Translations under genes and position numbers: made by a program | Notes under the pieces: generated by a model | The model's database searches: none | Seen by the model: only the letters and a program-made list of their open reading frames with translations | What the model was told of the DNA's origin: nothing | In this document: positions 6,561 to 64,000 of the stretch, piece by piece | How the letters are laid out: each line of letters starts with the position of its first letter | Position numbering within the stretch: the first letter of the stretch is position 1 | Origin: Tabrizicola sp. TH137 | Lineage (GTDB): Bacteria > Pseudomonadota > Alphaproteobacteria > Rhodobacterales > Rhodobacteraceae | DNA: 64,000 nucleotides | Assembly (NCBI RefSeq): GCF_002855575.1 | Contig: NZ_PKRQ01000002.1 | Location: forward strand, 806,001-870,000 | Direction of reading: 5' to 3'

Positions 6561-8854
<2,294 letters not shown>

Positions 8855-8862
8855 CCGACCAA

Positions 8863-8944
8863 CCCCTTCATCTTGGCGAGAAATACTCTCCAGGGGTGAA
8901 TGGCCGCGCGGGCACCGCGCGGACAGCGGGGACGGAACGTCCCC
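8863..8944. repeat. Family A element copy 2 with two GC-rich hairpins
   Basis: CCCCTTCATCTTGG at 8863 leads to AAATACTC ending at 8888 (family A). It is followed by the hairpin CCGCGCGG-GCA-CCGCGCGG (8904-8922) and a second one, GGGGACG-GAA-CGTCCCC (8928-8944). The position just after the SDR stop suggests 3'-end or terminator function for the hairpins. The remaining bases to the alr start at 9094 show nothing I can name. Confidence 0.6.
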
Positions 8945-9093
8945 TGACGGCGGAGCCGTAGCGCGGCAGCGCGCAGGCGATAGGAAAGGAACGCGCGGAA
9001 GCCGCACCGCAAGATCACGCCTCCGCCACCCGACGCCCCCGCCCCCAGAATTCCCTTGACCGCAGCCCCGCCCCTGCCGAAAACCCCCGGACC

Positions 9094-10152
9094 ATGGCCA
9101 CAGCAACCCTCACCATCGACCTCGACGCCATCGCCGCCAACTGGCGCGCGCTGGACCGCCTCTCCGCCCCCGGCACCCAGACCGCCGCCGTCGTCAAGGC
9201 CGATGCCTATGGCCTCGGGATCGACCGCGTCGCCCCGGCGCTGGCCCGCGCGGGCGCACGGCGCTTCTTCACCGCCGTCGCCGAAGAAGGCGCAAGACTG
9301 CGCCAGATCCTCGGCCCCGGCCCCCAGATCGGCATTCTCGGCGGCCATATGGCCGGGGATACCGAGATGATCCATGACCTCGACCTCACCCCGATGCTCA
9401 ACTCGGTGCAGCAGGTCACCCGCCACCTCGAATCCCTGCCCGGCCATCCCTTCGGCATCCAGCTCGATACCGGCATGAACCGGCTCGGTCTGGAAGACCC
9501 CGAATGGCGCGCCATCGCCCCCATCGTGCTGGAGGCGGGTCCCGATTTCCTGATGTCGCACCTCGCCTGCGCCGATGAACCCGACCATCCGATGAACGCG
9601 GCCCAACTGGCGCAGTTCCACCGCATGACCGATGGCACGGGTATCCCGCGCAGCTTTGCCGCCACCGGCGGCATCCTCCTCGGCCCTGACTACCATTTCG
9701 ATCTCACCCGCCCCGGCATTGGCCTCTATGGCGGCCAGCCCTTCGCAGAGGCGCATCCCACCGTCACCCTCTCCCTCCCCGTCATCCAGACGCGCGCCGT
9801 GGCCGCGGGCGAAACCGTGGGCTATGCCAATAGCTGGACCGCCGACCGCCCCACCACCGTCGCCACCCTCTCGGCAGGCTATGCCGATGGCCTGCCCCGG
9901 ACACTGTCGAACAAGGTCCATCTCTGGGATGGCGATACCCCCGTCCCGTTGATCGGCCGCGTCTCGATGGACCTCATCACCGCCGATATCGGCCACCTGC
10001 CCGAAGTGCCGCGCAGCCTCGATATCCTCGGCCCCCATCAGGGCGTGGACGACCTCGCCACCATCGCAGGCACCATCGGCTACGAAATCCTCACCTCGCT
10101 CGGCCCCCGTTACGCCCGCCGCTATGTCACCCGTCAGGGGGGGCAGGCGTGA
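9094..10152 (+). CDS. alr: Alanine racemase
   Basis: A PLP enzyme making D-alanine for peptidoglycan. In this 352-residue protein the PLP lysine is Lys35 in [12 protein letters not shown]. The second catalytic base, tyrosine, is in [12 protein letters not shown], with the GRVSMDLI segment after it. The alr stop overlaps the mlaE start by four bases (10149-10152), so the two are translationally coupled. The chain alr-mlaE-mlaF-membrane protein is a tight operon. dnaB-alr neighbourhoods are common in alphaproteobacteria. Confidence 0.96.
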
Positions 10153-10934
10153 CGGCCCTCACCGCGCCCCTTGCCGCCATCGGGCGGCCCGTGCTGGCGG
10201 CGCTGGCCGCCATCGGGCGCGTGGCCTTCTTCGCGGCCAGCGTGATCGGCCATATCTTCCGCCCGCCCTTCTACCCGCGCGAATTCTTCCACGCGCTGAT
10301 GCAGATCGGCTGGTTCTCGCTGCCCGTCGTGGGCCTGACCGCCGTCTTCACCGGCGGCGCCCTCGCCCTGCAAATCTATTCCGGCGGCGCGCGCTTCAAC
10401 GCCGAGGCGGTGGTCCCCTCCATCGTCGCCATCGGCATGGTGCGCGAACTCGGCCCCGTCTTGGGCGGCCTGATGGTCGCGGCCCGCGTCGCCTCCTCCA
10501 TCGCGGCGGAAATAGGCACGATGAAGGTCACCGAACAGATCGACGCGCTGGTGACCCTCTCCACCAACCCGATCAAATACCTCGCCGTGCCGCGCGTGCT
10601 GGCCGCCACGCTGGCCGTCCCCGTCCTCGTCGCCGTGGGCGATGCCATCGGCATCGCGGGCGGCTGGCTCGTGGGCGTCAACCGCCTCGGCTTCAACTCC
10701 ACCACCTATCTCCAGAACACGGTGGATTTCCTCGAAACATGGGACGTGGTCTCGGGCCTGTGGAAAGGCGCCGCCTTCGGCTTCATCGTGGCGCTGATGG
10801 GCTGCTATCACGGCATGAATTCCGGCCGCGGCGCGCAAGGCGTGGGCGCCGCCACCAAATCCGCCGTGGTGGGCGCCTCGGTCCTGATCCTCGCCGCCAA
10901 TTACATCCTCACCGAACTGTTCTTCTCCGCATGA
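10149..10934 (+). CDS. mlaE: MlaE-family ABC transporter permease
   Basis: The integral membrane subunit of the Mla-type phospholipid transporter, which moves lipid between the inner and outer membranes. It has 261 residues, begins with GTG at 10149, and has about five to six hydrophobic segments. The MlaE signature [21 protein letters not shown] (about residues 119-139) contacts the ATPase. The neighbour mlaF supplies the ATPase. No mlaD (MCE protein) or mlaB gene is adjacent, so the substrate-binding part must be encoded elsewhere or replaced. Confidence 0.93.
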
Positions 10935-53829: not shown

Positions 53830-54138
53830 GCGCCGACCCTAGCGCGGCCCGCTTCCGCAGCCAACACCCCGCCCCGCCCGCGCCCGGATCAACCCGAGGT
53901 TGCCGCGACTCCGCCGAAACAACCCGCAGCCCGGTTTCCCAAGGCGCCACGGTGCCCGGAACACCGGCAAGACGCGGACCCGCGCCGCAATCTTCCCGAC
54001 CATCACGCAACTATCATGAAAACACAGTTTGCTATCAGCGCGAATCGTGCCACCTATACCGACAAGATCGGCAGGGTAGTCCGATCAGCACCCCGCCCTC
54101 TGCACAGTGCAGCCGGGCGGCCAGAAATGGGGAGCTAC

Positions 54139-55266
54139 ATGACCAAATCCTACTCCACCCTCGACCGCCGCACACTGCTCAAGGGCACCGCCCTCGGCAT
54201 CGGCGCGCTTGCCGCGCCCGCGATCGTTTCGCGCAAGGCCCTCGCCTCTTCGGGCGAGCTGAACTTCACGGGCTGGGCCGGCTATCCGGCGCTGGCCGAA
54301 AAGGTCTTCCCGGCCTTTGAAGCCGCCACCGGCATCAAGGTGAACTTCAAGGAACTTCCCGACCAGGACACGATGTTCGCCGAAGCCAAGGTCGCGCTCG
54401 AAGCCGGCGGCATCGACGTGATCGAACCGACGATCGACCGTGTCGGCGCCTGGGATTCGAACGGCCTTCTCGGCACCTTCGACGAATCGAAGCTGGCGAT
54501 GGACAACTACCTTCCCGGCCTCGCCGATGGCGCGGCGGGCGAACGGTCGCGTCCGGGCGGCGCGCTGAAATACGTCCCCTCCGTCTGGGGGACCGAGTCG
54601 CTGGTCGTCAACACCGCCGACGCCAAGCTCTCCACCCCGCCCTCGCTGGGTGACCTGTTCAACCCGGAAAACCAGGCCGTGCTGCGCCCGCATTCGTCGC
54701 TCGCCGCCATGGGCCGCTGGCTCGACGCACAGGGCAAGCTGCCGCGTCCGTGGATGGACGGCTACAGCGACATGGCCGCCATGGTCGAACTCTGGGATAT
54801 CGCGCTGGCCGAGGCCGTGAAGGCCAAGGGCAATGTCGTGCAGTGGTGGTCGGGCGAGAACGAGGCGAATGCCGGCTTCACCGCCAACGGCGCGACCGTC
54901 GGCCTGTGCTGGGATTCGACCGGCTTCAACCTGCGCAATGACGGCTTCGCCTATGTCGCCCCGGTCGAAGGCGCCTTCGCCTGGCATCAGGGCTTCGTGA
55001 TGATGAAGAACGCCACCAACGTGGAACAGGCCCATGAATTCGTGAAATGGGTCTCCACTGCCGAAGGCGCGGCGGGCTGGGCTTCGGCCTTCTCCTCCAA
55101 CCCGGTGGGCAAGGGTGCGTCCGACCTTCTCGATCCGGAAGTCGCCGCCTATTACAACGGTACCTTCAACGACGACGCGCTGTCGAAACTGTGGTGGTGG
55201 CCCGACCAGTCGGCCGAATTCCTCGCCAAGCGCGCGGAATATGCCGACAAGTACAAGGCGGCCTGA
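54139..55266 (+). CDS. Spermidine/putrescine-type ABC transporter substrate-binding protein
   Basis: A 375-residue periplasmic binding protein of the PotD/PotF type. The N-terminus carries a twin-arginine (Tat) signal: DRRTLLKGTALGIGALAAPA with the RR pair at residues 10-11 and a cut near ALASSGEL. The mature part starts LNFTGWAGYPALAEKVFPAF, and VPSVWGTESLVVNT and CWDSTGFNLRND follow the family. The ATG at 54139 has GGGGAG just before it. A Tat signal implies export in folded form. It heads the operon with the ATPase and two permeases; polyamine or a related cation is the likely ligand. Confidence 0.9.
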   Translation: MTKSYSTLDRRTLLKGTALGIGALAAPAIVSRKALASSGELNFTGWAGYPALAEKVFPAFEAATGIKVNFKELPDQDTMFAEAKVALEAGGIDVIEPTIDRVGAWDSNGLLGTFDESKLAMDNYLPGLADGAAGERSRPGGALKYVPSVWGTESLVVNTADAKLSTPPSLGDLFNPENQAVLRPHSSLAAMGRWLDAQGKLPRPWMDGYSDMAAMVELWDIALAEAVKAKGNVVQWWSGENEANAGFTANGATVGLCWDSTGFNLRNDGFAYVAPVEGAFAWHQGFVMMKNATNVEQAHEFVKWVSTAEGAAGWASAFSSNPVGKGASDLLDPEVAAYYNGTFNDDALSKLWWWPDQSAEFLAKRAEYADKYKAA

Positions 55267-55286
55267 TCGCAGGATCATGCCTTCCT

Positions 55287-55312
55287 CACGCCGGGCCCCA
55301 TGGCCCGGCGTG
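55287..55312 (+). terminator. Hairpin between the binding-protein and ATPase genes
   Basis: CACGCCGGGCC, loop CCAT, GGCCCGGCGTG: an 11-pair hairpin 20 bases after the binding-protein stop. In ABC operons such a hairpin often stabilises or partly ends the message so that the binding protein is made in excess. Confidence 0.7.
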
Positions 55313-55443
55313 TTCATTTGCTGGGCAACACCTTCCGTCTGGCCCCATCCGGCACGACCATCTGGCGATACACATTGCGCCCGGTGTCCAGCCTGCTAGC
55401 CTGACGGCAACGAACAAGAACCACGACAGGGGAACACAGCGCG

Positions 55444-56526
55444 ATGAGCGCCGGTATCGAACTTGAAAACGTCTGCTGCGATTTCGGCAGCTTCCGCGCG
55501 GTTGACAACGCCAACGTCTCCATCAAGCCAGGCGAGTTCTTCTCCTTCCTCGGCCCCTCGGGCTGCGGCAAGACGACGATCCTGCGCATGATCTCGGGTT
55601 TCATCGACCCGACGCAGGGCGCCATTCGCATCGGCGGCAAGGACATGAAGGGCCAGCGCCCGAACCAGCGCCCCACGGCGCTGATCTTCCAGAACCTCGC
55701 GCTCTTCCCGCTCATGCCGATCTGGGAAAACATCTCCTTCGGGCTGGAAGTCCGCGGCGTGGACAAGGCCACCCGCCGCGCCCGCGCCGAGGAACTGCTG
55801 AAGCTCGTCGATCTGCCCGGCGCCGGTGACAAGATGGTGTCGCAGCTTTCCGGCGGCCAGAAGCAGCGCGTCGCCATCGCCCGCGCCCTCGCCGTCGAAC
55901 CGCAGGTGATGCTTCTCGACGAACCGCTCTCGGCGCTCGACCTCAAGCTGCGCCAGCACATGCGCGCCGAACTCCGCGCCATCCAGAAACGCACCGGCGT
56001 CACCTTCATCTACATCACCCATGACCAGGGCGAAGCCCTCGCCATGTCCGATCGGGTCGGCGTCATGTCCCATGGCCGCATCCAGCAGATCGCCGACCCG
56101 CGCGACATCTACAACAACCCGGTCAACGGCTTCGTCGCCTCCTTCGTGGGCGAGAACAACATCTTCACCGGCGACGTGGGCGCGGTGGCCGACGGCATCG
56201 CCGCCTTCTCCACCCCGCATGGGCATTTCCGCGCCCGTCTGGGCGAAAAGGCCACGGGCAAGGGCGTGAAACTCTATGTCCGCCCCGAACACACACTGAT
56301 CAGCGCCACCGCCCCGGCCGAAAACGCCATCCACGGCAAGGTGGAGGAAGTCTCCTTCGAAGGCAATTTCATCGCCGTCCACGCCGTCACCGACAGCGGC
56401 ATGAAGATGACGGCGGAACTCCGCAATGACGGCTCCTCCGCCATCCCCGAAGTGGGCGCGCAGGTCTGGATGGGCTTCGACGCCCGCCACGCCTCCATCC
56501 TGCCCGATGCGGATACGAGGGGCTGA
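55444..56526 (+). CDS. potA: Spermidine/putrescine-type ABC transporter ATPase
   Basis: A 360-residue ABC ATPase with Walker [16 protein letters not shown]-loop [19 protein letters not shown], signature [19 protein letters not shown], Walker [13 protein letters not shown] and switch histidine [14 protein letters not shown]. The C-terminal TOBE domain begins at about residue 265 ([13 protein letters not shown]). The end overlaps closely with the permease gene (three bases apart). The symbol is given by family, not by proven substrate. Confidence 0.93.
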
Positions 56527-56529
56527 CCC

Positions 56530-57453
56530 ATGCAGGACCTGCTCCGCCGCTACGGTCTGGGCCTGACGACGATCATCTGCCTTCTGGTCTTCTTCTGGCT
56601 GGTGATCCTCGTCATCGTCCCCAACATCACCCTCTTCGAAAGCTCCTTCCGCCCCTACCTCCCGGTGACAGAGGTGGGCGGGCCGAAGGATGTCTATTCC
56701 TTCGACAACTACCTCAAGGTCTTCGGGGGCGAGGTGGAAGTCTCCCCCTTCGGGATCACCTTCATGATCCCCGTCCATGTCATGACCTTCTTCCTGACGA
56801 TCTGGTATTCGGTCGTGGTGACGGCGCTCTGCTTCCTGATCGCCTATCCCATGGCCTATTACATGGCCAAGATCGCCAATCCCCGCTCCGTCCCCACCCT
56901 GCTTCTGCTGATCTTCGTGCCCCTCTGGGTGTCCGAGGTGCTGCGCGCCTTCGCCTGGTGGATCATCCTCGCCTTCAAGGGGCCGCTCAACTCGCTGCTC
57001 CTCGCGCTCGGGATCATCGAAGACCCGATCCGCTGGATCACGGATTACGATGCGGTGGTGATCGGCCTGATCTACACCTATGTCCTCTTCATGCTCTTCC
57101 CGGTCTATAACGCCGTCTCCTCGCTGGACACCAACCAGATCGAGGCGGCCGAAGACCTTGGCGCCTCCTGGTGGAAGATCCACTGGCGCATCGTGCTGCC
57201 CCATGCCAAGCCCGGCATCGCCTCCGGCTCCGTCATGGTCTTCATGCTCTCGGCAGGTTCCCTTCTCGTGCCGTCGATCCTCGGCTCCACCACGTCGCAA
57301 TGGTTCACCCAGACCATCAACCAGTGGTTCAACGACGCGCTCGACTGGAACACGGCCAGCGCCTATGCCTTCCTGCTGCTTTTCCTCTGCACGGTCTTCG
57401 TCGCCATCGCGATGCGGGCCTTCAGGGTAAAGCTGTCGGACATCGCGAAGTAA
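56530..57453 (+). CDS. potB: Spermidine/putrescine-type ABC transporter permease (PotB-like)
   Basis: A 307-residue inner-membrane permease with six predicted helices. It starts with a membrane anchor near residues 10-32 and has the EAA loop EAAEDLGASWWKIHWRIVLPHAKPGI that docks on the ATPase. PMAYYMAKIANPRSVP and FVPLWVSEVLRAFAWWIIL follow the PotB pattern. It is co-transcribed with the ATPase and the second permease, 13 bases from the latter. Confidence 0.93.
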   Translation: MQDLLRRYGLGLTTIICLLVFFWLVILVIVPNITLFESSFRPYLPVTEVGGPKDVYSFDNYLKVFGGEVEVSPFGITFMIPVHVMTFFLTIWYSVVVTALCFLIAYPMAYYMAKIANPRSVPTLLLLIFVPLWVSEVLRAFAWWIILAFKGPLNSLLLALGIIEDPIRWITDYDAVVIGLIYTYVLFMLFPVYNAVSSLDTNQIEAAEDLGASWWKIHWRIVLPHAKPGIASGSVMVFMLSAGSLLVPSILGSTTSQWFTQTINQWFNDALDWNTASAYAFLLLFLCTVFVAIAMRAFRVKLSDIAK

Positions 57454-57466
57454 GGGAGGACAGACG

Positions 57467-58306
57467 ATGCATCGCCTTCGCCTCAGCCTCTCGCATCTCT
57501 ACGCGACGCTGTTCCTGATCTACCTCATCGCCCCCCTGCTCGTCATGGCGGGCGCGGCCTTCAACGACTCGCGCCTTCCCTCCATCGTGCCGTGGAAGGG
57601 CTGGACCCTGAAATGGTTCGGGGAAATGGCCTCCGACGAACGGATGATGCTGGCCTTCGTCAACACGCTCTGGGTGGCGGCCGCCGTGGCCCTCATCTCG
57701 GTGATCGTGGGAACAGCCTCAGCCATCCTCATCAACTCGATCTCCGGCCGCGTGCGGACGGTGATCTACGGGCTGATGATCTCCACCATCCTGATCCCCG
57801 GCGTCGTCATCGGCATTTCCACCATGCTGCTTTGGACAAAGGTCGGCAACGCGCTGGATACCGAGTTCTTCCTCTTCGGGGCCGGCCTCCATCTCTCGGT
57901 CCTCGGTCAGGTCAGCTACATCGCCGCCATGGTGATGCTCCTTGTCCTCGCCCGCCTGCAAAGCTTCGATGCCGGGCTGGAAGAGGCGGCGCTCGACCTC
58001 GGCGCCAGCCATTCGCAGGTGATGCGGCGCATCCTTCTGCCCCATCTCTATCCCGCTATCGGGGCCGGCGGCGCCGTCGCCTTCTTCCAGTCGATCGAGA
58101 ATTACAACGTGACCCAGTTCACCCGCGGCGGGGCGGATACGCTGACGGTCTATGTCTTCTCGATGGTCCGTTCGGGCATCACCCCGGCGATCAACGCCCT
58201 CGCCGTGATCATGATCTCCGTCACCATCCTGGCCGCGATCCTCTACGAATTGCGGCGGCGGCGGATCGAACGGCTGATGCGCGAAACCGCCCCGGCCGAA
58301 GACTGA
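57467..58306 (+). CDS. potC: Spermidine/putrescine-type ABC transporter permease (PotC-like)
   Basis: A 279-residue permease. It has the initial helix LYATLFLIYLIAPLLVMAGAAF, FNDSRLPSIVPWKGWTLKWF as in PotC, and the EAA loop EEAALDLGASHSQVMRRILLPHLYPAI. The C-terminal helix is followed by a short basic tail. It completes a four-gene import system (binding protein, ATPase, two permeases). A GC-rich hairpin at 58314 follows. Confidence 0.93.
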   Translation: MHRLRLSLSHLYATLFLIYLIAPLLVMAGAAFNDSRLPSIVPWKGWTLKWFGEMASDERMMLAFVNTLWVAAAVALISVIVGTASAILINSISGRVRTVIYGLMISTILIPGVVIGISTMLLWTKVGNALDTEFFLFGAGLHLSVLGQVSYIAAMVMLLVLARLQSFDAGLEEAALDLGASHSQVMRRILLPHLYPAIGAGGAVAFFQSIENYNVTQFTRGGADTLTVYVFSMVRSGITPAINALAVIMISVTILAAILYELRRRRIERLMRETAPAED

Positions 58307-58344: not shown

Positions 58345-58402
58345 CGCATCACCCCTGCGAAACATGACCTTCCCCCCGTTGCGCTGGGCGATATACCCCA
58401 GT

Positions 58403-58457
58403 GCGCTGCGTGGCCACAACTTGCTGCACAGAATGCGGCACAGCATGCTGCACGGCG
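58403..58457. repeat. 16-bp core plus three 12-bp tandem units, copy 2
   Basis: GCGCTGCGTGGCCACA (58403-58418) is followed by TGCTGCACAGAA, TGCGGCACAGCA and TGCTGCACGGCG (58422-58457). It is the second copy of the element at 31116-31170, with an identical core and two of three units nearly identical. It lies just before the glycosyltransferase start at 58476. Confidence 0.6.
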
Positions 58458-58475
58458 ATAACCGGGGAATCCGCC

Positions 58476-59462
58476 GTGTCCGCCAACGCCATCGTCTTCT
58501 TCGCCACCTCCAAATCCGGCCTCGGCCACCTGCGCCGCAGCGCCACCATCGCCCGCGCCCTTCGCCGCGCCGCGCCCACGCGCGCCTTGCGTCTGGTCAC
58601 CAACGCGCCCCCGCAAGGGCTTGATCCCGAAGACCTTTCCGCCTTCGACAGGATCACGGTCGCCGACCGCGCCGCGATGCCCGCCGCGGCCGGCCCCGCC
58701 CCTTTCACCGCTGTCCTCGACACGATGAACCTGCCCGAACTCGAATCCCCGGCCACCCCCCGAATTCTCGTTCTGCGGGAAACACCCGACGCACAGCTCT
58801 CCCGCTTCCAACCCGCCCAGCACCCATGGTCCCGCGTCCTGATCGCCAATCCGGCCAATCACTGGCTGCCGCGAATGCCCGAAGGCAGCACGCAAGACGT
58901 TGTTTCCGTTGGCTGGATCTATCGCATGGCCAAGGCCGCTGGTCCGGACTCCCGGTCGCGCCCGCGCCTTCTCATCGCCACCGGGGGCGGCGGGACAGAG
59001 CAGACGGCAGCCGACCTATATGATCAGATCGGGACTCTTCTGACCCGCCTCCGCCACCTCTGCCCGCTGCCCTTCGACGCCATCCAGGCCATCGGTCCCC
59101 GCGCCCGGTCCTTCGGCCAGGTGCCCGGAATTGATGCCATCACCGACCCCGGCGGCAGCCTGAACCGGCTGTTCCACACCGCCGATGCCGTCATCTCCAC
59201 CGCCGGCTACAACTCCGTCCTCGAACTCGCCACCACCACCACCCCCACCCATCTCATCCCCATCCCCCGCTCCATCGACGATCAGGACAGCCGCGTCCGC
59301 CTCTGGTCCCCCCGCCTCGCCCCCGCCAACTGCCTCCCCCTCGGCCTGACCGGCGGCGACTGGCTGGCCCATGTCCTGCATCACCGCCTCCGCCGCCCGC
59401 CCGTCGATCTCGGCCCCAGTGGCGAAGATCGGGCGGCGCGGGCGATCCTCGCCGTCGCATGA
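58476..59462 (+). CDS. COG4671-like predicted glycosyltransferase
   Basis: A 328-residue GT-B-fold protein beginning at the GTG at 58476 (GGGGAA nine bases before it). The N-terminal AIVFFATSKSGLGHLRRSATIARALRR corresponds to the GxGHxRR loop of predicted glycosyltransferases related to MurG/GT28. RPRLLIATGGGGTEQTAADLYDQI marks the start of the C-terminal half, and DAVISTAGYNSVLELATT is the donor-binding part. The same GLGHxRR layout occurs in the second half of the receiver-fused protein at 63013. It overlaps the next gene by four bases. The sugar donor is not known. Confidence 0.78.
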   Translation: MSANAIVFFATSKSGLGHLRRSATIARALRRAAPTRALRLVTNAPPQGLDPEDLSAFDRITVADRAAMPAAAGPAPFTAVLDTMNLPELESPATPRILVLRETPDAQLSRFQPAQHPWSRVLIANPANHWLPRMPEGSTQDVVSVGWIYRMAKAAGPDSRSRPRLLIATGGGGTEQTAADLYDQIGTLLTRLRHLCPLPFDAIQAIGPRARSFGQVPGIDAITDPGGSLNRLFHTADAVISTAGYNSVLELATTTTPTHLIPIPRSIDDQDSRVRLWSPRLAPANCLPLGLTGGDWLAHVLHHRLRRPPVDLGPSGEDRAARAILAVA

Positions 59463-60196
59463 CCGCCCGCGTCCTCATTGGCGAAAGCCATGTTCTGAAA
59501 CGCTTTTCCAGCGCCACCGCGGCGCAGGCCGCACTCGACCGGGCCGAGGCCCTGCTGGCCGCGGGCATCGCCACCCCCCGCCCGGCCCGGCAGGATGCCG
59601 ATACGCTCCGCTTTCCCCGGATCACCGGCAGCAGCGGCGGCGACCTCGTCGCCACCCTGCCCCATCTGCTGTCTCCCCTGCTGGCCCTGACCCGACTGAA
59701 GGCGCCCGGCCTCCGCCTCGATGGTCACGATCCGCTCCGCCGCATCCGCCCGCGCCTCGCCCTCGCCCCGGCCTCGGTCGCAAGGCTTGCCGACCGGCAG
59801 GCCGCTCTCCTTCCTCCACCGGGGCAAACCCTCTGCCACGGCGATTTCCACCCCGGTCAGGTCATCCGCACCGCCGACGGGCAATCCTGGCTTCTCGATC
59901 TGGATGACCTTGCCCTCGGCCCCGCCGAGGCCGATCTGGGCAACCTGATCGCCTGGCTGGCAACCCGTCCCATCCCCTCGCCCGATCCGCTTCCCCTGCG
60001 GCTGGTCCGCTCGCGCCGCGACGTCGGCGCCTGCTGGCATCTGCTCGGCGGCAGGATAGACGCCGCCTCCCTCAGCGCATATCAGACCCTCGCCCTGATC
60101 CGCCGCGCGCTCAAGCGCGCCGAAGGCGGCGACCGGTCGCTTCTTGATGCCGTCGAAGCCCTGGCCGGGCAAGGCGCAGACCTTGCAAAGGCCTGA
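59459..60196 (+). CDS. Aminoglycoside-phosphotransferase-like (APH) kinase
   Basis: A 245-residue protein of the APH/choline kinase fold. LCHGDFHPGQVIRTADGQ holds the catalytic aspartate (Brenner motif), and SWLLDLDDLALGPAEADLGNLIAW the magnesium-binding aspartate. The N-terminal VLIGESHVLKRFSSATAA has the ATP lysine. It is translated with the glycosyltransferase before it. In that setting it may phosphorylate a sugar or lipid rather than an antibiotic. The next gene is convergent with one base between the stops. Confidence 0.82.
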   Translation: MTARVLIGESHVLKRFSSATAAQAALDRAEALLAAGIATPRPARQDADTLRFPRITGSSGGDLVATLPHLLSPLLALTRLKAPGLRLDGHDPLRRIRPRLALAPASVARLADRQAALLPPPGQTLCHGDFHPGQVIRTADGQSWLLDLDDLALGPAEADLGNLIAWLATRPIPSPDPLPLRLVRSRRDVGACWHLLGGRIDAASLSAYQTLALIRRALKRAEGGDRSLLDAVEALAGQGADLAKA

Positions 60197-60197
60197 C

Positions 60198-61424
60198 CTA
60201 ACGCCTTGAAATCCCGAATTTCTCCATCCGGTACCGCAGGGTGTCGCGTGAAATGCCAAGCATCTCTGCCGCGCGCGACACATTGCCCCCCGTCACCCGC
60301 AGGGCCTTCACCAAAGCCGTCTCTTCCATCTTGGTCAGGTTGGGAACCACGACCTCGTCGCGCTCCGTCTGGTCGATGATCTTGATGTCAGAGGCCGCAA
60401 TCATGCCGTCGCTGGACTGGATCACCGCCCGCTCGATGCAATTCTCCAGCTCGGCCACATTGCCCGGCCAGTCATGCTGCAACAGCTTCACCCGTGCCTC
60501 CCCGGTCAGCCGGGGGCGACTGCGCGAAAAGCGGAAGGCCGTCCGCCGTGCGAATTCCTCGGCCAGCGGCAGGATATCCGAACTGTGATCCGCCAGCGGC
60601 GGCACATCCACCCAGCCCACCTGGATGCGATAGAGAAGATCGGGCCGGAAGGCCCCCTTCCGCTCCATCGCGCCAAGGTTGCGCGACGTCGTCGCGATGA
60701 CCCACAGCCCCGGATCGGCCTCCAGCGCACGCGCCAGCCGGGCCTGATCCTCCTCGCCCATCGCATCGACATGGCGCAGGATCAGGACCCGCGCACCTGC
60801 GGCCAGCGCCGTCTCGATCTGGCCATCCCCACCCACCGAACAATCGACGCTTTCCATCCGCCCGCGCACCTCCTGCGCGCAGTCATAAAGCGCCCGCGCC
60901 GCCAGCGTCTTGCCGCTGCCCCGCGGCCCGGTCAGCAGCACGCCGGGCGGTTGCTGCCCTTCCGCCGCCGAAGCCAGCCGCCGCAGGGTCGCGCGCAGGT
61001 CGATGGCCGAAGAGGATCGCCCGACGATCCGGTCCACCCCGGTCACATCCATGGGCCGCGCGCTGTCCTGCAAGATCAGATCCGCCGCCATCCCGGCGAT
61101 CATCGCCAGAGGCGCGGGCTTCATCAGGAAGTCCCGCGCCCCCCGCTTCATCGCCTCGACCGCAATCCCCACATCGCCATGGCCGGTCATCACCACCACC
61201 TGCGCCTCGGGATTTATGCCGCGCAACGTGGGCAGCAGGTCCAGCCCGTTCTCCCGGCCCAGCCGCACATCCAGGATCACCAGCCGCGGCCTTTCCCGCC
61301 GGAACAGCGCCAGCGCGCTCTGCCCGTCGATGGCGAAACCGGCCGAAAAGCCGCGCCGTTCCAGAAACCCCACGATGGAGCGCGCCAGCACATCCTCATC
61401 CTCGATCACCAGGATATCGGTCAT
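60198..61424 (-). CDS. NtrC-family response regulator lacking GAFTGA
   Basis: A 408-residue regulator. The receiver domain (about 1-120) has ILVIEDED, the phospho-acceptor Asp52 in LVILDVRLG, and the lysine in DFLMKPAP. The AAA+ domain has Walker A LLTGPRGSGKTLAA, but the segment where sigma-54 activators carry GAFTGA is missing, and Walker B is degenerate (VLILRHVDAM). The FRPDLLYRI segment is kept. The C-terminal Fis-type helix-turn-helix is GGNVSRAAEMLGISRDTLRYR. R. capsulatus NtrC also lacks GAFTGA and activates sigma-70 polymerase, so this may be similar. I prefer the ATG at 61424, one base after the kinase stop, over 61433. Confidence 0.85.
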   Translation of the reverse strand: MTDILVIEDEDVLARSIVGFLERRGFSAGFAIDGQSALALFRRERPRLVILDVRLGRENGLDLLPTLRGINPEAQVVVMTGHGDVGIAVEAMKRGARDFLMKPAPLAMIAGMAADLILQDSARPMDVTGVDRIVGRSSSAIDLRATLRRLASAAEGQQPPGVLLTGPRGSGKTLAARALYDCAQEVRGRMESVDCSVGGDGQIETALAAGARVLILRHVDAMGEEDQARLARALEADPGLWVIATTSRNLGAMERKGAFRPDLLYRIQVGWVDVPPLADHSSDILPLAEEFARRTAFRFSRSRPRLTGEARVKLLQHDWPGNVAELENCIERAVIQSSDGMIAASDIKIIDQTERDEVVVPNLTKMEETALVKALRVTGGNVSRAAEMLGISRDTLRYRMEKFGISRR

Positions 61425-61425
61425 C

Positions 61426-62805
61426 TCAGCCATGCCCCGGCAGGATCAGCGTCACTTCCACACCCTCGCTCGGGCGGTTCTTCAGATCCAGCGATCCCCC
61501 CATCCGCTCCACGATCCGCCGCCCCAGCGCCAGACCCACGCCCAGCCCTGCCGCCTTCCCCGTCTCAAAGGGCTTGAACAGCCGCCCCACCATGTCGGGC
61601 GGGATGCCCGGCCCGGTATCGGTGATCGTGATGGCGATCTTGCCATCCGGGCGGCTCGACCAGCCGATCCCCAGCTTGCCGCCCTTCTGCATCGCCTCGA
61701 TGCTGTTCGAGATGATGGAATTCAGCACCTGTTCAAGTTCCGACGGCTGCGCCAGCGCGATGGGATGGCCGCGCCCCCCCGACATCACCGAAACGATCCC
61801 GCGCTTGCGCATCTGCGGCTCGAAATTCTCCAGACAGCGCTGGATCACCTGGTCGATCTGCGCCTGATCCGAAAGACTGCCGGGGTCATTGCGGCTGCGG
61901 ATCAGGAAGGCCCGGATCCAGCTTTCCAGCCGGTCCACCTGATTGGTGATGTCGCGGATCGCATCGCGGCTGTGGTCGGGAATATCGTCCTCCATCGTCA
62001 GCTCCGCGCAGGACCGGATCGCCGCCAGCGGATTGCGCAGCCCATGCGCCACCGCCGAGGCCATCTCGCCCACCACGGCCAGCCGCTCCGTCTCGACGAT
62101 CCGCGCCTCCTGCCGCTGAAGGACGCGGCTGGCATAGGCCACCACCACCGCCAGCCCGCCAAACAGCGCGCAGCCCGCCGCAAGCGCGCCCAGCCAGGCC
62201 AGCTTGCGGATCTCGGTCATCGAGGCAAGCAGGCTTTCCGGTGCCTTGTAAACCTCCACCGCCCCCACGATCTCGCCGGTGATCTCGCGGCGGATCGGGA
62301 TGTAATATTCGATGAACCGGTCCACCCCATCGGGGAAGCCGACATGTTCATCCTTGTCGCCCCGGCTGACAACGCTCAGTTCCGGCTCCAGCCGGCCATC
62401 CATAGCGTGTTCCAGTTCCTCGTTGTCCTCGAACCTCTTGCCCACCATCTGCGGATCGCTCGACCACAGGATGTGCCCATCAAAGGCATAGACATTGGCC
62501 CGGAACACATCCGGCAGCCGCGACACATGCGACACGAATTCCTGCACGTCGGGCGGCGTGGGCGCATCGGTGATGCCCATGAAATAGGGCGCCGCCTGCT
62601 CGACATGGACGATGGAATTCAGGAACTCCGTCGAAACCATCGCATCGCGCATCATCATCTGATGAATAATGTAGCGCGACAACGCCGTCGAAAGGATCGC
62701 GGCAGTCGAAAAGATGGCCAGAAAGCTGATGACGAAAAAGATCGTCAGCATCCGCAGATGATGCGGTGAATCGCGCAGGCTGGTCGCGCCGATCAGAAGG
62801 CTCAT
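61426..62805 (-). CDS. Membrane sensor histidine kinase
   Basis: A 459-residue kinase. Membrane helix one is at about residues 17-40 (MLTIFFVISFLAIFSTAAILS) and helix two at about 183-208, around a periplasmic sensor part of about 140 residues. Then come the H-box VVGEMASAVAHGLRNPLAAI with the phospho-histidine, the N-box LNSIISNSIEAMQKGG, and the G-boxes ITDTGPGIPP and GLGVGLALGRRIVERMGG. The ATG at 62805 has GGAGG five bases before it. The upstream frame to 62910 is not family-like. It is coupled to the NtrC-like regulator and is the likely partner of both that and the receiver-glycosyltransferase protein. Confidence 0.92.
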   Translation of the reverse strand: MSLLIGATSLRDSPHHLRMLTIFFVISFLAIFSTAAILSTALSRYIIHQMMMRDAMVSTEFLNSIVHVEQAAPYFMGITDAPTPPDVQEFVSHVSRLPDVFRANVYAFDGHILWSSDPQMVGKRFEDNEELEHAMDGRLEPELSVVSRGDKDEHVGFPDGVDRFIEYYIPIRREITGEIVGAVEVYKAPESLLASMTEIRKLAWLGALAAGCALFGGLAVVVAYASRVLQRQEARIVETERLAVVGEMASAVAHGLRNPLAAIRSCAELTMEDDIPDHSRDAIRDITNQVDRLESWIRAFLIRSRNDPGSLSDQAQIDQVIQRCLENFEPQMRKRGIVSVMSGGRGHPIALAQPSELEQVLNSIISNSIEAMQKGGKLGIGWSSRPDGKIAITITDTGPGIPPDMVGRLFKPFETGKAAGLGVGLALGRRIVERMGGSLDLKNRPSEGVEVTLILPGHG

Positions 62806-62889: not shown

Positions 62890-62936
62890 GTTCTGGGGCA
62901 TTTCCCCCAAATTGCCCCCGCCATTTGCCCCAGAAC
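62890..62936. promoter_or_regulatory. 11-bp inverted repeat in the divergent control region
   Basis: GTTCTGGGGCA (62890-62900) and TGCCCCAGAAC (62926-62936) form a perfect inverted repeat, 25 bases apart, between the kinase and the receiver-glycosyltransferase gene. TTGCCCC occurs twice, at 62912 and 62925, 13 bases apart. A regulator-binding site, perhaps for the NtrC-like protein, is inferred. Confidence 0.55.
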
Positions 62937-63012: not shown

Positions 63013-64000
63013 ATGCCGGATATCCTTCTGATCGAAGACGAGCCGATCATCGCCCGCAATATCGGGATCGCGCTGGGGCGTGCCGGGCATCGCGTCACCC
63101 ATGCCGCCTCCGCGACAGAGGCGCGCCGGGTTCTGGCAGCGGGTCTGGCCTCGGGGACGCATCCCGATCTGGTGATCGCCGACATCTCGCTGGGCGACGG
63201 CGATGGGATCGAGGTGCTCTCGGCCCATGGCCCGCAGCTCAGGGACTGCCCCGTCATCATCATGAGCGGCCAGGACAGCACCGCCAACCGGCTGCGCGCG
63301 GAAGGGATTTCCGTCGCGGCCTTCCTTGCCAAGCCCTTCGCAATGGCGCGGCTCTGCGAACTCGCGGCGGCCCTTCTGGCCGAAAGCCTGCCCGAACAGC
63401 AGCGCAAGCCCGGCCCGTCGGTGATGATGTATTCGCATGATACGATCGGCCTCGGCCATATGCGCCGCAACAGCGCCATCGCCGAGGAACTGGTCGCCCG
63501 CGTGCCGGGCCTGTCCGTCCTGATGCTGGTCGGTTGCCCGGCGGGTATGATGTTCGCCCCCCGTCCGGGGATCGACTACATCAAGCTGCCCTCTCTGGCC
63601 AAGCTTGGCCGCGACCGCTGGCAATCGGGCAGCCTGCGGATCGACGCGGAAACGGCCCGCGCGCTGCGGGCGGGCATCCTCGAACGGGTGGCCGAAACCT
63701 TCAAGCCCGATGTCTTCCTCGTCGATCACGAACCGACCGGGGTCTGGAACGAACTCGTCGCCCCCCTGCGCCGCCTGCGCGAAAGCTGCGGCACGCGCAC
63801 GATCCTTGGCCTGCGCGACATTCTCGATGATCCCGACCGGACCTGTGGCCGCTGGGCCGAAACGGGCACCGACAAGGTGATATCCACCCTCTATGACGAT
63901 GTCCTGATCTACGGGAATGCCGATTTCTACCCCTCCAGCCGCGCCTATGGGCTGGATCGTCTCCGCCCGGATGGGGTGCAGTATTGCGGTGCCGTGACCA
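63013..64000 (+). CDS. Receiver domain fused to a COG4671-like glycosyltransferase (runs off the window)
   Basis: The visible 329 codons form one open frame from the ATG at 63013 to the window end. Residues about 1-125 are a CheY-like receiver: ILLIEDEP, phospho-acceptor Asp57 in DLVIADISLGDGDG, the threonine/serine position in PVIIMSGQDS and the lysine in AFLAKPFAM. After a short linker, from about residue 137, VMMYSHDTIGLGHMRRNSAIAEELV starts a COG4671-like glycosyltransferase. PDVFLVDHEPTGVWNEL, TILGLRDILDDP and VLIYGNADFYPSSRAYGL continue it. Receiver domains normally end in DNA-binding or GGDEF-type outputs; a glycosyltransferase output is uncommon. It is divergent from the kinase gene, so phosphorylation by that kinase is likely. 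The donor-binding C-terminal half is outside the window. Confidence 0.87.
   Translation, partial: MPDILLIEDEPIIARNIGIALGRAGHRVTHAASATEARRVLAAGLASGTHPDLVIADISLGDGDGIEVLSAHGPQLRDCPVIIMSGQDSTANRLRAEGISVAAFLAKPFAMARLCELAAALLAESLPEQQRKPGPSVMMYSHDTIGLGHMRRNSAIAEELVARVPGLSVLMLVGCPAGMMFAPRPGIDYIKLPSLAKLGRDRWQSGSLRIDAETARALRAGILERVAETFKPDVFLVDHEPTGVWNELVAPLRRLRESCGTRTILGLRDILDDPDRTCGRWAETGTDKVISTLYDDVLIYGNADFYPSSRAYGLDRLRPDGVQYCGAVT

Follow-up and report, generated by a model that had tools for sequence, protein, structure and literature searches.

The gene at the right-hand end of the window (the whole stretch of 64,000 nucleotides that was analysed, i.e. G000:C22:806001-870000 in the own genome G000, of 4.66 Mb) encodes a response-regulator receiver that is joined in frame to a glycosyltransferase, as the earlier note had read from the letters of the window. 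The frame on the forward strand (63013-64000) is open up to the window end and runs on along the same contig, with neither stop nor frameshift near that end, to a stop after 532 codons, which gives a protein of 532 amino acids in which the C-terminal half of a GT-B enzyme is indeed reached; in its own genome the gene starts at G000:C22:869013 and its stop ends at C22:870611. Pfam finds Response_reg at residues 4-117 (E 5.5e-16, 59 bits against a cut-off of 30) and Glyco_tran_28_C at residues 347-483 (E 4.3e-11, 43.6 bits against a cut-off of 22). The receiver, described at the outset as CheY-like and complete because of Asp57 and a conserved lysine, has both D57 and K107, and with E8/D9 and S85 the site is whole, so that by domain as well as by site residues (acidic pair, phosphoacceptor Asp, Thr/Ser and Lys) the protein belongs to the response regulators. 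The next gene downstream, which overlaps the fusion gene by 8 bp, encodes a GT4 glycosyltransferase. The features that lie within the window are collected in Table 1.

Table 1. Features of the receiver-glycosyltransferase locus, in window coordinates
Feature	Position	Strand	Basis or remark
Second predicted operator, TGGGCGATATACCCCA, before the second glycosyltransferase	58385..58400	.	17.6 bits, matrix trained on fusion-side sites only
Second GT-B (MurG/GT28-like) glycosyltransferase	58401..59462	+	GT28_C match weak, below cut-off, plus MurG match; true start may be downstream of 58401; at 13/14 loci (14th contig too short)
APH-family (phosphotransferase-like) protein adjoining the second glycosyltransferase	59459..60196	+	Pfam APH E 3.7e-10; at 13/14 loci (14th contig too short)
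NtrC-like response regulator: REC, AAA+ without GAFTGA, Fis-type HTH_8	60198..61433	-	Overlaps kinase gene by 8 bp
Sensor histidine kinase: HisKA, HATPase_c, two hydrophobic segments	61426..62805	-	His of HGLRNP at 62044-62046
Palindrome TGGGGCATTTCCCCCA, predicted operator between kinase and fusion gene	62894..62909	.	1 mismatch to TGGGGCA-WW-TGCCCCA
Weaker second predicted site, same intergenic region	62917-62932		10.5 bits
Receiver (REC) domain of fusion, residues 1-120	63013..63372	+	Pfam Response_reg on full protein, residue alignment
Fusion receiver site	E8/D9 63034-63039; D57 (phosphoacceptor) 63181-63183; S85 63265-63267; K107 63331-63333	+	
Linker, residues 121-134	63373..63414	+	Low conservation between most distant members; identity by domain
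N-terminal half of GT-B glycosyltransferase in fusion	63415..64000	+	GHMRRN motif

The half of the transferase that lies beyond the window carries, next to GT28_C, the motifs GGGGRD, GGYNS and SEQR, and the transferase motifs are kept with small changes in the fusions and in five stand-alone relatives. By its sequence, the transferase part comprises both halves of a GT-B enzyme in full, the donor half being GT28-like. Phmmer relates it to the UDP-glycosyltransferases 7vlb (PDB; E 6.4e-8) and YjiC 6kqx (E 1.2e-7) and to MurG 1f0k (E 1.4e-7), the last match spanning residues 201-356. These MurG/UGT-like GT-B enzymes have the C-terminal GT28 domain in common with the fusion, whereas the N-terminal receiver is found in the fusion only. 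An assignment of the transferase as a MurG equivalog was rejected (TIGR01133, 36.7 bits against a cut-off of 250).

A search for the domain order, with a listing of the gene neighbours, yielded 14 fusion loci with a conserved neighbourhood. The usual order is that of a second GT-B and an APH-like gene, the NtrC-like regulator and the kinase in reverse orientation, and then, on the other side of the divergent promoter region, the fusion, two GT4 glycosyltransferases, an MsbA-like ABC exporter and APH-like proteins; in the window genome a further GT4 comes next, and then a histidine phosphatase. In L026 and G993 an APH-like gene stands ahead of the exporter, while two ORFs lie between kinase and fusion in L025 and possibly one in L115. 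Two annotated stand-alone transferase records come from clusters with a nucleotide-sugar dehydrogenase, glycosyltransferases, a polysaccharide deacetylase and an ABC exporter, and since both the locus and these stand-alone clusters carry genes for glycan assembly and export, the product of the fusion pathway is likely a polysaccharide or glycolipid. The stand-alone homologs WP_243268192.1 (Sulfitobacter) and WP_272808994.1 (Shinella) present the same transferase, followed by further glycosyltransferase genes, but have no receiver.

All 14 loci are alphaproteobacterial and 12 of them hold a full-length, unbroken fusion gene. Within the genus, a full-protein search (E<=1e-30) recovered the fusion from 4 of 19 genomes. 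At E<=1e-60, with the best 3-4 candidates per genome scored, it was present in 6/394 genomes of the family (G000, G002, G064, G114, G258 and G371; a seventh match, G362, is without receiver), 3/390 of the order (G000, G371 and G485; the further matches G362 and G510 are without receiver), 2/385 of the class (G000 and G993) and 1/299 of the phylum draw, namely the own genome G000. A scan of genome contigs added four fusion loci, i.e. in a Rhodobacteraceae MAG (L024), in Pelagibius litoralis (L025), on a Kiloniellaceae contig (L026) and in a MAG of the Rhizobiaceae group (L027), the other 76 of the 80 matches listed comprising the receiver only or little beyond. No plasmid-borne fusion was seen (263 plasmid records matched at E<=1e-20, but in none did any one place span 80% of the query), and no plasmid matched the kinase at 1e-80. 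Transferase homologs that stand alone are common in Alphaproteobacteria (~30-38% identity among the matches listed); in the transferase tree the five that were included group together, separately from the 12 fusions and with 100% support, and this separation fits a single fusion event. Two of the 14 copies are broken, by a stop in REC in G371 and by loss of the frame near the contig end in G064. At the G371 locus (L117:8046-10802) the GT4 gene that follows the fusion gene is broken too, while kinase and regulator still match almost from end to end.

Full-length orthologs of the fusion occur in 11 other genomes, at 46-87% identity. In an alignment of 13 fusion proteins, which includes the G064 fragment and leaves out the stop-bearing G371 copy, E8, D57 and S/T85 are kept in all 13 and D9 and K107 in 12, so that 12 of the 13 hold the five receiver-site residues together. 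The dN/dS ratios (Nei-Gojobori, four close pairs), rough figures because synonymous sites are near saturation, are 0.09-0.11 for REC, 0.06-0.08 for the N-terminal transferase half and 0.055-0.13 for the C-terminal half (residues 345-500). The 11 orthologs and the low ratio of REC led us to reject chance, assembly or a frame artefact as the origin of the gene. That the receiver is a relic or has a structural role only, in a fusion that arose as a recent accident, is hardly credible: the two broken copies and the patchy spread within the genus would suit such an origin, but REC is constrained nearly as much as the transferase halves and its active site is retained throughout most of the family.

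The partner kinase had been placed next door in divergent orientation, and a divergent kinase, together with the NtrC-like regulator, is found at 13/14 loci (the regulator at the G064 locus being cut by the contig end). What did not hold is that it serves the fusion alone; a kinase private to the fusion was rejected on the grounds that its gene overlaps that of the NtrC-like regulator and that the pair occurs also without the fusion, in four genomes of the same genus (kinase 51-79% identical). Because of the 8 bp overlap, the regulator is probably the primary partner of the kinase, and the presence of the pair without the fusion implies that the pair also serves some other function. The kinase gene likely starts at 62805, with GGAGGA upstream, although its ORF reaches 62910, and the two hydrophobic segments of the protein are strong (peaks 2.48 and 2.23).

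In the 411-aa NtrC-like protein of the window the GAFTGA string expected of a sigma-54-dependent activator is absent, and this regulator should therefore not need sigma-54; it is probably sigma-54-independent, though HTH_8 is kept. NtrC of Rhodobacter capsulatus is likewise an NtrC-family regulator that has no GAFTGA and acts independently of sigma-54. The arrangement of REC, AAA+ and Fis-type HTH is shared with the GAFTGA-less NtrC-family regulators and with PgtA (NF047793), a model that covers residues 4-410 of the window regulator, albeit at 166 bits against a cut-off of 650; the window regulator differs from PgtA and R. capsulatus NtrC in that it sits in a glycan locus.

Which kinase addresses the fusion was approached by comparison of the receiver domains of the own genome. 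Pfam (E<=1e-5) gives 52 of these, namely those of the fusion, of its NtrC-like neighbour and of 50 others; with double entries removed, each ranking comprised 51 receivers. Profiles were built from 12 fusion receivers and 12 NtrC-like receivers, and five sets of positions were tried, among them alpha1 (residues 10-25), a main kinase-contact helix of receivers in other systems. Over alpha1 the NtrC-like neighbour ranks first of 51 on the fusion profile and the fusion first of 51 on the NtrC profile. The corresponding ranks are 1 and 2 for a 7-residue face of alpha1, 2 and 8 for the whole receiver, 29 and 9 for beta5-alpha5, and 13 on both profiles for the receiver minus alpha1; as the whole-receiver, 7-residue and beta5-alpha5 ranks are lower, the resemblance is confined to alpha1. 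Fusion and NtrC-like receivers have the alpha1 motif (V/I/L)(L/I)(A/G)R(N/S)I in common, from which, in G371 and G485, the NtrC-like receiver deviates; its G form is seen in both receivers of L026 and G993 and in the NtrC-like receiver only of L025. The likeness supports, without proving, that one kinase may serve both receivers. The alternative, that the fusion receiver is served by a kinase encoded elsewhere and the neighbour acts on the NtrC-like regulator only, draws on the gene overlap, which commonly marks a dedicated pair, and on whole-receiver ranks of only 2 and 8; we consider it quite improbable in view of the alpha1 ranks, the linkage at 13/14 loci and the joint decay of receiver and kinase in one genome, described below.

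Natural variants of the locus bear on the same matter. Among 78 chosen genomes a kinase match (E<=1e-60) was obtained in 10/10 fusion carriers and in 5/68 non-carriers, the match in one of these (G003) being just 33% identical. The associated Fisher p of 2.4e-9 is inflated by linkage, relatedness and the choice of genomes, and physical linkage alone would yield much of the co-occurrence; this one-sided pattern is in keeping with a fusion that depends on the kinase, and with a kinase that can do without the fusion. In G017 (L209:5201-12329) the kinase pair and a palindrome have the ABC-importer genes of the window genome as their neighbours, and the cluster glycosyltransferases had no match in the 12.3 kb examined, on a contig that ends 1.7 kb past the kinase, as if a cassette around the kinase had been gained or lost.

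The converse state is met at L027: the locus is without kinase and regulator, and none of 32 candidates from its genome matched the kinase at E<=1e-30. Here the receiver carries D9Q and K107R, with D57 kept, and the best palindrome in the locus (7000-10500) scores 6.1 bits. On this branch the REC tip is 2.215 long and the GT tip 0.976, against 3.803 and 3.67 for the rest of the trees, so that the pace of receiver evolution, taken relative to the transferase, is about double that in the rest of the tree. This decay is a single event in one MAG of uncertain completeness, in which genes may be missing, and among 199 genomes of its family no further relative with a decayed receiver was found at E<=1e-60 (n=1).

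Between kinase and fusion the palindrome TGGGGCA-WW-TGCCCCA is perfect in G485, has one mismatch in G000, G002 and G018 and two in G010 and G993. A matrix trained on 13 such fusion-side sites was tested independently before the second glycosyltransferase, where 9 of 12 loci have a site of at least 16 bits, a cut chosen after the scores were known (8 sites within the preset range, that of L025 at 289 bp upstream); a site is missing there in G485 (4.8 bits), L026 (1.4) and G993 (11.6). Positions 1-58000 of the window contain no site of at least 16 bits, and a relaxed pattern matches only at the two promoters (58385 and 62894), yet 7 of 100 shuffles gave at least two matches, so that a single window is weak evidence. 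Genome-wide, the matches (backwards control in brackets) number 12 (2) in G000, 9 (1) in G002, 11 (1) in G018, 12 (2) in G010, 4 (3) in G485 and 7 (2) in G993; G000 and G002 each have another one-mismatch site elsewhere, and G010 has a site better than that of the fusion, hence the regulon of the palindrome may be wider than the locus. The kinase-regulator pairs without fusion have the palindrome before the kinase in three of four close cases (22.4-24.8 bits in G017, G016 and G009; 9.4 in G015). In G003 (L213:5639-10526) a distant kinase-regulator pair (33-35% identity) lies ~2 kb from a 21.4-bit palindrome that precedes an ORF of 585 aa next to ABC-type genes; this may be a different regulon.

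Taken together, we think it rather probable that the locus encodes a branched system, in which one kinase would address two receivers, one that sets the amount of an enzyme and one that is part of the enzyme itself. The fusion would then be a response regulator with an enzyme as output, its receiver controlling a GT-B glycosyltransferase of a pathway for glycan assembly and export. The divergent membrane kinase would most likely phosphorylate the receivers of the NtrC-like regulator and of the fusion; the regulator would bind TGGGGCA-WW-TGCCCCA before the fusion operon, and usually also before the second glycosyltransferase, and thereby set the amount of enzyme, whereas phosphorylation of the fusion at D57 would switch the activity or the docking of the transferase, with a direction, and a bearing on catalysis, that we infer. 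Given the overlap between the genes of kinase and NtrC-like regulator, and a palindrome linked to this pair that precedes the fusion operon and usually the second glycosyltransferase, control is probably exerted at both the transcriptional and the enzyme level; a sugar-transfer enzyme under two-component control, as had been proposed, remains probable, but not its placement there instead of under transcriptional control. In favour of the branched system are the retained five-residue site, the linkage at 13/14 loci, the kinase in 10/10 carriers, the alpha1 ranks, the joint decay in L027 and the palindrome before the second glycosyltransferase; against it are that L027 is a single case with D57 kept, that the likeness is confined to alpha1, that the kinase pair exists without the fusion, that sites are missing in three loci and that the palindrome has matches elsewhere.

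Two further roles of the receiver deserve mention. As a docking or localisation module it would allow the membrane kinase, with or without phosphorylation, to hold the transferase near its acceptor and the exporter, and catalysis would not be switched. MurG-like enzymes act at the membrane; the strong hydrophobic segments belong to the kinase, the highest 19-residue value of the fusion (1.76) lying within its transferase part, and the alpha1 resemblance alone would fit such docking. Conservation in 12/13 proteins nevertheless extends beyond a docking helix to the whole phosphorylation site, and L027 retains the transferase though no kinase was found, for which reasons we hold this role to be unlikely. 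Unlikely, too, is that the receiver serves as a phosphate sink that damps the signal from kinase to NtrC-like regulator, such that the abundance of an otherwise unregulated transferase feeds back on transcription; the two receivers may share a kinase and the fusion operon has the palindrome that a feedback loop would require, but a sink has no need to be joined to an enzyme, and kinase and regulator persist without the fusion in the four genomes of the same genus.

Two-component systems are regarded mainly as gene switches. CheB, PleD and RpfG are response regulators with enzymatic output domains, and the well-studied outputs of this kind act on signalling (methylesterase, c-di-GMP). The fusion resembles such regulators in its receiver, its enzyme output and its conserved phosphoacceptor site, and differs from them in that its output looks like a biosynthetic enzyme; to our knowledge, direct control of a biosynthetic enzyme by phosphorylation has rarely been demonstrated. 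The branched system suggests that one sensor may govern a sugar pathway through gene expression as well as enzyme activity. In its stricter form, i.e. dual control of one polysaccharide-type pathway, with one sensor kinase acting through a sigma-54-independent NtrC-like regulator on the amount of the glycan machinery and through the receiver-glycosyltransferase on its rate, the proposal could by our estimate go either way on the present sequence evidence. Nature provides the variants that a direct test of the idea calls for, i.e. the fusion, the enzyme on its own, the kinase pair where the fusion is absent and a decayed receiver where the kinase is absent, and the receiver-transferase could become a model of how surface glycans are controlled rapidly.

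The earlier note knew of no characterised example of the pairing, and for a receiver joined to a GT-B/GT28-like enzyme none was found described in the literature searched (full text at partial coverage, so that an earlier mention in a review is possible). The kind has a precedent, however: receivers attached to metabolic enzymes are already known, and REC joined to a BcsA-like GT2 domain (MTH_548 and relatives) is described in Methanobacteriaceae (PMC5847659). These proteins, too, combine a receiver with a sugar-transfer enzyme and have a narrow phyletic spread, but they are archaeal and of type GT2/PF13641, whereas the enzyme studied here is GT-B/GT28-like; a neighbouring kinase, an operator and decay, all features of the present case, go unmentioned in the passages on these proteins (PMC5847659). 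The fusion itself has no Pfam match to a PF13641-type GT2 domain at E<=1 and is thus not of the Methanobacteriaceae type. As far as seen, what is new here is an output of the GT-B type, a conserved locus that unites it with kinase, regulator and palindromes, and the joint decay.

Some observations concern the surroundings. The glycan operon contains three tandem APH-family proteins (L009:12748-16195) that have no NCBIfam match at E<=1e-8, and a fourth lies at window position 59459. In G362 (L121:6605-15095) the same core of GT-B, GT4, GT4 and ABC exporter, with a transferase that has no receiver, immediately follows the genes of an OmpR-type regulator and of a kinase in which HAMP is matched weakly; a different two-component system thus adjoins the same kind of pathway. 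Beside the window locus, at 54016-58306, lie genes that we read as those of an ABC importer, with an ATPase, two permeases and, ahead of them, what is likely a binding protein; they are 91-98% identical in two genomes of the genus and hence more conserved than most of the glycan genes.
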